Both the position numbers and the translations under genes were made by a program. This document shows positions 33,629 to 34,435 of a stretch of DNA of 64,000 nucleotides, one piece after another (position 1 is the stretch's first letter; the number at the start of each line of letters is the position of its first letter). Origin of the DNA: Arcobacter sp. FWKO B (GTDB lineage Bacteria > Campylobacterota > Campylobacteria > Campylobacterales > Arcobacteraceae); contig NZ_CP041403.1 in the NCBI RefSeq assembly GCF_014844135.1, positions 558,001 through 622,000 on the forward strand, read 5' to 3'. Below the pieces are notes generated by a model, which ran no database searches, had not been told where the DNA came from, and worked only from the letters and a program-made list of their open reading frames with translations.

Positions 33629-34075
33629 TTGAATACTTTTATGCAAACAGCTGTTAAAGAAGCACACAAAGCTATCACCAAAAACCACGGCGGACCTTTT
33701 GGTGCAGTTGTTGTCAAAGATGGAAAAATTATCTCAAAAGCACATAATTGTGTAATAAAAACAAATGATCCAACATCACATGCGGAAGTCAATGCTATAA
33801 AAAAAGCTAGTAAAATTTTAAATACATTTGATTTAAGCGGATGTGAACTTTATACTAATTGTATGCCTTGTCCAATGTGTCTTGGTGCTATTAAATGGTC
33901 AAATATAAAGAAAATATACTATGGTGCTACTTCACAAGATGCCTCTGATATTGGATTTAGAGATTTGATTTTTTATGAAAAAAATAACCAATATGAGCTT
34001 ATCAATCTAAATAGAACAGAATGTTTAGAACCCTTTAAAATCTGGCAAAATAAAGAAGATAAAATCCAATACTAA
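33629..34075 (+). CDS. Nucleoside/guanine deaminase family protein
   Basis: Zinc-dependent cytidine-deaminase-fold protein (148 aa) with HAEVNAIKKAS (zinc His and catalytic Glu) and CMPCPMCLGAIKW (PCxxC zinc ligands). The sequence is closer to guanine deaminase than to TadA. It starts at TTG after an AAAGGG site, 10 bp after trpE. The next in-frame ATG would remove four residues. Confidence 0.85.
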   Translation: MNTFMQTAVKEAHKAITKNHGGPFGAVVVKDGKIISKAHNCVIKTNDPTSHAEVNAIKKASKILNTFDLSGCELYTNCMPCPMCLGAIKWSNIKKIYYGATSQDASDIGFRDLIFYEKNNQYELINLNRTECLEPFKIWQNKEDKIQY

Positions 34076-34079
34076 ACTA

Positions 34080-34097
34080 CGGAACACTAATTGTATG
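34080..34097 (+). promoter_or_regulatory. Sigma-54-like promoter upstream of cowN
   Basis: The sequence GGAACACTAATTGTA (34081-34095) fits the Campylobacterota sigma-54 pattern GGAAC-N6-TTGC, with GG at -24 and T instead of C at the -12 dinucleotide (GG-N10-GT). Predicted transcription start is about 34106. This suits a nitrogen-fixation-linked gene. No enhancer site was identified. Confidence 0.5.
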
Positions 34098-34099
34098 TA

Positions 34100-34128
34100 T
34101 ATACCCTATAAACTTCTTATAGGATATA
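34100..34128. promoter_or_regulatory. Inverted repeat overlapping the cowN start region
   Basis: TATACCCTATAA (34100-34111) and TTATAGGATATA (34117-34128) pair at 11 of 12 positions around ACTTC. The right arm contains the AGGA ribosome site of cowN, so the element could be an operator or could mask translation. Confidence 0.5.
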
Positions 34129-34132
34129 GAAT

Positions 34133-34435
34133 ATGAATACAAATAGAGATAGATATATTACATTTAGCAACATAGATTGTTATCAAAATGCTATTGAAGT
34201 GCTTGATTGTATGTTTGAGTTATTCAATCTTTATCCCGAGGCAAAAAACGATTTTTGGATAAGATTTGAGAATCAACTTCCAAATAACTATAAATCAAAT
34301 TACTGTAAAGAAGGGTGTTTAGATATTTTATATCTAGTTTGTTCAAATGTTTTTTATATTTCAGATTTATTTGATGAATATGATTTTGAAAAAGGGATAG
34401 ATATTTTGCAAAAAGCAGAACTTGAGTGTTGCTAA
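34133..34435 (+). CDS. cowN: CowN-like protein (CO protection of nitrogenase)
   Basis: A 100-aa soluble protein. Its N-terminal NRDRYITFSNIDCYQNAIEV matches the CowN family signature (DRYxSFxGIDCxxNA), followed by the NDFWIRFENQLP segment expected around residues 41-52. CowN sustains N2-dependent growth in the presence of carbon monoxide by protecting nitrogenase. The four extra cysteines in the C-terminal half are unlike the short family members I know. The sigma-54-like promoter upstream supports the assignment. No nif structural genes are in the window. Confidence 0.75.
   Translation: MNTNRDRYITFSNIDCYQNAIEVLDCMFELFNLYPEAKNDFWIRFENQLPNNYKSNYCKEGCLDILYLVCSNVFYISDLFDEYDFEKGIDILQKAELECC

Follow-up and report, generated by a model that had tools for sequence, protein, structure and literature searches.

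The cowN gene of Arcobacter sp. FWKO B is preceded by a predicted sigma-54 promoter of the nif type and by an inverted repeat that covers its ribosome site. We propose, with a probability of a little under 60%, that this repeat acts as a read-through mask, and that a similar device stands at the genus's other nif promoters lying behind co-directional non-nif genes. RNA entering from the co-directional deaminase gene upstream would carry both arms of the repeat, fold, and hide the cowN ribosome site. Transcription from the sigma-54 promoter would yield RNA that begins inside or past the 5′ arm, has a freer ribosome site and is translated. Since read-through RNA would be masked and promoter-born RNA translated under this proposal, CowN would be made only when the nif program is on.

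The window is the whole stretch of DNA analyzed, 64,000 nucleotides at positions 558001-622000 of a single-contig genome (G000; 2,243,170 bases, 99.99% complete). It was compared with a sample of 104 genomes of the family.

The cowN gene in a nitrogen-fixing genome

The cowN coding sequence occupies positions 34133-34435 of the plus strand, starts with ATG, and encodes 100 amino acids that include RDRYITFSNIDC. A sequence-only reading had named the gene a CowN homologue, and both available models agree: PF20543 matched with 83.5 bits over profile positions 3-94 of 94 (Pfam cut-off 27) and the equivalog model NF033689 with 66.3 bits (NCBIfam cut-off 48). This is the only CowN match in G000. The same reading saw a hint of a diazotrophic member of the Campylobacterota, which the genome search bore out. 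Genes of the nifH, nifD, nifK, nifE and nifN types, a NifA-like activator and rpoN are present in G000, all between 78 and 127 kb, and the nearest promoter of this nif region is about 460 kb from cowN. These results show that the window codes for CowN, and that the genome also has nif structural genes, a NifA-like activator and RpoN. The gene is an ordinary CowN gene of a diazotroph, with an unusual leader. Between nifH and nifD lies a 121-aa open reading frame (L049:9795-10160, plus strand) with no Pfam or NCBIfam match.

CowN of Gluconacetobacter is described as keeping nitrogenase turning over under CO (PMC8047169), and by analogy the CowN encoded in the window would keep nitrogenase working under CO. 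The proteins of the two organisms belong to the same family over curated cut-offs, and expression linked to nif would be expected in both. In Gluconacetobacter diazotrophicus, cowN is described with upstream sites for NifA and CooA and adjoins cooA (PMC8047169), whereas the cowN in the window has no TGT-N10-ACA within 300 nt and has a deaminase gene upstream instead.

CowN was found in 28 genomes of the family sample, and nifD exceeded its cut-off in 31. The two go together: cowN is present in 27 of the 31 genomes with nifD, compared to one of the 73 without it (Fisher p 1e-19, kinship not removed). Four genomes (G001, G019, G044 and G076) have nifD without cowN. The one cowN genome without nifD is G103 (L035 / L106; 86% complete), a member of the same genus, in which cowN is broken while its promoter and hairpin are seemingly intact; nitrogen fixation was perhaps recently lost there. 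The two cowN matches of G086 are fragments of a single broken gene (L268, G086:C1:285800-302400), interrupted by about 14 kb resembling a transposon. Judged by eye, this insert includes genes for a transposase-like protein of 1001 aa and a resolvase-like protein, along with genes of the metal-efflux type. In a second CowN lineage, of the IRVDESYVSFKNIDCFENA type, cowN and a conserved gene for an AraC-type regulator with Arabinose_bd and HTH_18 domains point away from each other in five loci (L011, L012, L013, L017 and L020). This regulator is a candidate for controlling cowN in that lineage, and perhaps a CO response.

A nif-type sigma-54 promoter

Directly upstream of cowN, the sequence GGAACACTAATTGTAT at 34081-34096 (plus strand) matches a nif-type sigma-54 promoter, with GG at -25/-24 and GT at -13/-12. 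The sequence-only reading had placed a GGAAC-N6-TTG promoter match here; the site stands, while the spacing is GGAAC-N5-TTG (GG-N10-GT). Sigma-54 transcripts start about 12 nt past the -12 base, which would put the cowN start at 34106, give or take 2 nt, on the plus strand, as judged from the promoter class. The GG of the -24 element is present, and the -12 dinucleotide is GT rather than GC. The same GT is found at cowN of G101 and G103, the two genus relatives that hold the gene, and at a SIR2-like gene of G000.

The pattern of this promoter class occurs once in the window compared to 0.52 occurrences expected by chance, and therefore the match alone proves nothing. The cowN promoter and its inverted repeat become convincing only when set beside those of relatives and beside further promoters of G000. 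The cowN promoter resembles the nifH promoter of the same genome, GGAACACCATTTGCAA. GGAAC opens the nifH promoters in all 30 family genomes compared, eight of which share GGAACACTAA. The cowN promoter is kept in both genus relatives, as GGAACAAAATTTGTAT in G101 and GGAATAAAACTTGTAT in G103. With a narrower pattern built from its own promoters, G000 gave 31 matches, compared to 10 for the reversed control, and the matches that precede a gene outside long frames mostly belong to nif genes. A site matching at nine or more of 11 positions lies no farther than 130 nt from the start at 10 of 26 named CowN loci, and several of the loci without such a site directly follow a nif-type gene.

Alternatively, cowN may simply be co-transcribed with the deaminase gene, and the promoter match may be meaningless. 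That gene (33629-34075, plus strand; PF00383, 96.1 bits) ends 5 nt before the promoter. This short gap, the T instead of C at the -12 base and the ease with which pattern-class matches arise by chance would all be consistent with co-transcription. However, the same core is kept before cowN in G101 and G103 although the upstream gene is another one (a chemotaxis-type gene in G101), and TTGTAT is also found at the nif-region SIR2-like gene of G000. We consider co-transcription alone highly improbable. A nif-type sigma-54 promoter for cowN is well supported by these comparisons, and the control by RpoN put forward in the sequence-only reading is consistent with the likeness to the genome's own nifH promoter and with conservation in the genus.

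A hairpin over the cowN ribosome site

The inverted repeat consists of a 5′ arm at 34100-34111 and a 3′ arm at 34117-34128 (plus strand), separated by a 5-nt loop. Eleven of 12 positions pair, as the sequence-only reading had stated, and the mismatch is C34104 against A34124. The arms fold as a stem. The 5′ arm spans -6 to +6 relative to the predicted start, and the 3′ arm covers the ribosome site AGGA at 34121-34124 (plus strand), 8 nt before the ATG. The RNA from 34092 to 34135 has a predicted fold of -9.6 kcal/mol in which AGGA is paired (z -2.14; seven of 200 shuffles were as good). The repeat is real, but modest when taken alone. An Rfam search of the window gave no matches.

The position of the start decides what the native RNA would contain. 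At the cowN of the window, the 5′ arm includes the predicted start, and a leader beginning there is still predicted to fold with -4.4 of the -9.6 kcal/mol. This remaining 6-bp stem is consistent with a hairpin that is part of the working mRNA and tunes its translation or stability, for example as a temperature-responsive element or a 5′ stabilizing stem. In the predicted folds, it vanishes if the start lies 1-2 nt later. The working-mRNA explanation is harder to reconcile with cowN of G101 and G103, where the predicted start is past the 5′ arm, and with the SIR2-like gene, nifN and nifH, where the arm likewise lies almost wholly before it. It also leaves the link to neighbor orientation, described below, unexplained, and we regard it as unlikely. 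Under the read-through mask, native RNA would lack the 5′ arm at most of these promoters, where the arm lies before or at the predicted start.

Pairing between promoter and leader at nif promoters

A similar layout was found at nifV, nifH, nifN, the SIR2-like gene and cowN of G000: the stretch after the -12 element pairs with the ribosome site of the leader. The SIR2-like protein (L050:10169-10963, minus strand; PF13289) is encoded in the nif region, and its gene has the cleanest promoter-nested hairpin of all, with 11 bp and a 13-nt leader.

This pairing was expressed as ddG, the fold energy of the segment from -14 to -1 joined to the leader minus that of the leader alone. G000 had 25 pattern matches, of which nine promoters entered a swap test between segments and leaders. 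Matches inside long reading frames were left out, as were orf127, whose start was missed by rule, and L176, L178 and L179, which lie outside long frames and have a start that is absent by rule or at 29 nt (ddG 0.0 at L179). In G101, eight of 16 pattern matches were used, the others lying inside long frames; G103 contributed cowN alone. The native ddG sum in G000 was -47.0, compared to a swapped mean of -19.6 (sd 6.3), with one of 20,000 swaps as good. In G101, it was -52.1, compared to -23.1 (sd 7.6), with 19 of 20,000 swaps as good. For 18 promoters together, the sum was -112.9 with the segment in its native place and -23 to -48 at 14 positions farther upstream. When swaps were confined to co-directional promoters, the native arrangement ranked first among 720 in G000 (six promoters) and among 24 in G101 (four promoters). 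The effect survived when the assumed start was shifted by -2 to +4.

Pairing by chance, helped by promoter ends rich in T and ribosome sites rich in A and G, has some points in its favor. The repeat in the window reaches only a modest z by itself, other genera lack the signal, and among 128 ordinary genes, 12.5% attain -6.9 at the best of 11 placements (6.1% of 1,408 single placements). Roughly ten control genes in every hundred also pair well by chance. However, the swap and slide controls preserve composition and still fall short of the native arrangement, which makes chance improbable as the explanation for the set.

The repeat could also serve as an operator in the DNA, bound by a repressor or a CO sensor. 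Its position across the predicted start is a usual one for a repressor, and cowN is described as being under CooA control elsewhere (PMC8047169). Against this, the sequence of the arms varies from promoter to promoter and from one orthologue to another, yet the pairing is kept. The operator was rejected as the main reading on this ground, and we see very little chance that it is correct. The hairpin at cowN looks like one of a set of similar hairpins at the nif sigma-54 promoters of the genus, which goes beyond what the sequence-only reading had proposed.

Association with the orientation of the upstream gene

The proposed read-through mask would concern promoters that lie behind a co-directional non-nif gene. 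In G000, ddG at such promoters was -6.9 (nifV), -8.1 (nifH), -12.2 (SIR2-like), -13.1 (nifN), -5.2 (cowN) and 0.0 (nifT). In G101, the values were -17.7 (nifV), -8.6 (nifH), -8.4 (orf127) and -13.0 (cowN), and cowN of G103 gave -13.8. Divergent or nif-internal promoters gave -1.5 (nifX-like) and 0 (orf114 and nifB) in G000, and -4.4 (nifN) and 0 (nifX-like, orf114 and nifB) in G101. With a threshold of -5, 10 of the 11 promoters that follow a co-directional non-nif gene paired strongly, compared to none of the seven others (Fisher 2.5e-4), with both the threshold and the orientation classes chosen after viewing the data. Orthologues are not independent, and collapsing them gave six of seven compared to none of four (p 0.015).

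A natural experiment is provided by nifN, which is co-directional and strong in G000 and divergent and weak in G101. A counterexample is nifT of G000, which is co-directional and has no hairpin. The upstream gaps in G000 are 5 nt at cowN, 12 at nifV, 17 at the SIR2-like gene, 74 at nifH and 90 at nifN; that of nifV in G101 is 183 nt. Because the gap is only 5 nt, a terminator has no room between the deaminase gene and the cowN promoter. The gap at nifH of G000 contains a terminator-like repeat, and the hairpin is present despite it.

Pairing outside the genus

No general pairing signal was found at nifH of 30 family genomes, where 984 of 5,000 permutations were as good, nor at 15 promoters of five further genomes reached through their CowN loci (368 of 5,000 as good; 117 pattern matches, 74 sites read, 18 with a start, 15 kept). 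The same was true for nifV in the other genera among 30 genomes, 28 of which have a site, for cowN of other genera, and for nif promoters on nine plasmid records, a set too small and with several sites too uncertain for a count. Strong single cases occurred on the plasmid records (Rahnella nifE -11.1 and nifH -5.7; Neorhizobium nifH -15.1) and in other genera (G104 cowN -8.5, G108 nifH -7.7, G057 nifV -9.3). Two of these, G108 nifH and Rahnella nifE, break the orientation rule. The rule is only weakly tested in other genera because their nifH mostly has a divergent or distant neighbor and their nifV often lies behind nif-type genes. As far as tested, the hairpin set is confined to this genus.

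A NifA without a DNA-binding domain

The NifA-like activator of G000 has GAF, sigma-54 interaction and AAA lid domains and scored 486 with the NCBIfam nifA model, below its cut-off of 528.85. A strong nifA match was found in 31 family genomes. The open frame measures 507-537 aa in 29 of them, compared to 459 in G000 and 456 in G101, which are both of the nif-bearing genomes of the genus. The protein (L050:11941-13299, minus strand, in G000; G101:C77:45296-46582, minus strand) ends about 70 residues early, before the C-terminal DNA-binding domain, and the next gene starts at the nifA stop in both genomes. The Pfam and NCBIfam profile search found no helix-turn-helix in NifA of G000. The NifA site TGT-N10-ACA, missing near cowN, is absent at nine of 10 nif promoters of G000. 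We infer that the short NifA needs no upstream sites to work. FlgR and CtcC are described as sigma-54 activators that have no DNA-binding domain (PMC3162934). The NifA of G000 and G101 likewise lacks this domain, and differs from FlgR and CtcC in its NifA-type GAF domain and its nif setting.

Known parallels and implications

Masking of this kind is described for phage T4, where gene e is silent in early read-through RNA (PMC3014915). In the leaders of T4 genes e, soc, 49 and I-TevI, a helix in the long RNA is described as hiding the ribosome site, and transcripts from the nearby promoter are made without the 5′ strand of that helix and are translated (PMC3014915). By the predicted fold, the ribosome site of the cowN in the window also lies inside a helix of the long RNA. 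The T4 examples are phage late genes, while the present case would be a chromosomal nitrogen-fixation regulon with sigma-54 promoters, and is predicted only. At the transposase leaders of IS10 and IS50, RNA from outside is said to form a ribosome-site hairpin, and the native RNA starts within the hairpin. Those are ends of mobile elements, whereas nif is a metabolic regulon. No paper on masking of nif read-through RNA was found by title or abstract start, in a search that covered subscription journals thinly.

A broader form of the proposal, to which we give about even odds, is that a chromosomal nif regulon is insulated at translation. In promoters behind a co-directional foreign gene, the interval from the -12 box to the start would contain a strand complementary to the ribosome site of the promoter's own leader, so that only RNA born there would be translated, in a genus whose NifA has no DNA-binding domain.

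Terminators are often missing between genes in compact bacterial genomes, and it is rarely asked how nitrogen fixation and other costly programs are kept from leaky expression. Promoter-nested ribosome-site masks are already known in phage late genes. If the proposal is true, a regulon-wide set that follows neighbor orientation would be a general means of gene insulation that can be found from sequence, and it would be useful for rebuilding nif genes in new hosts.
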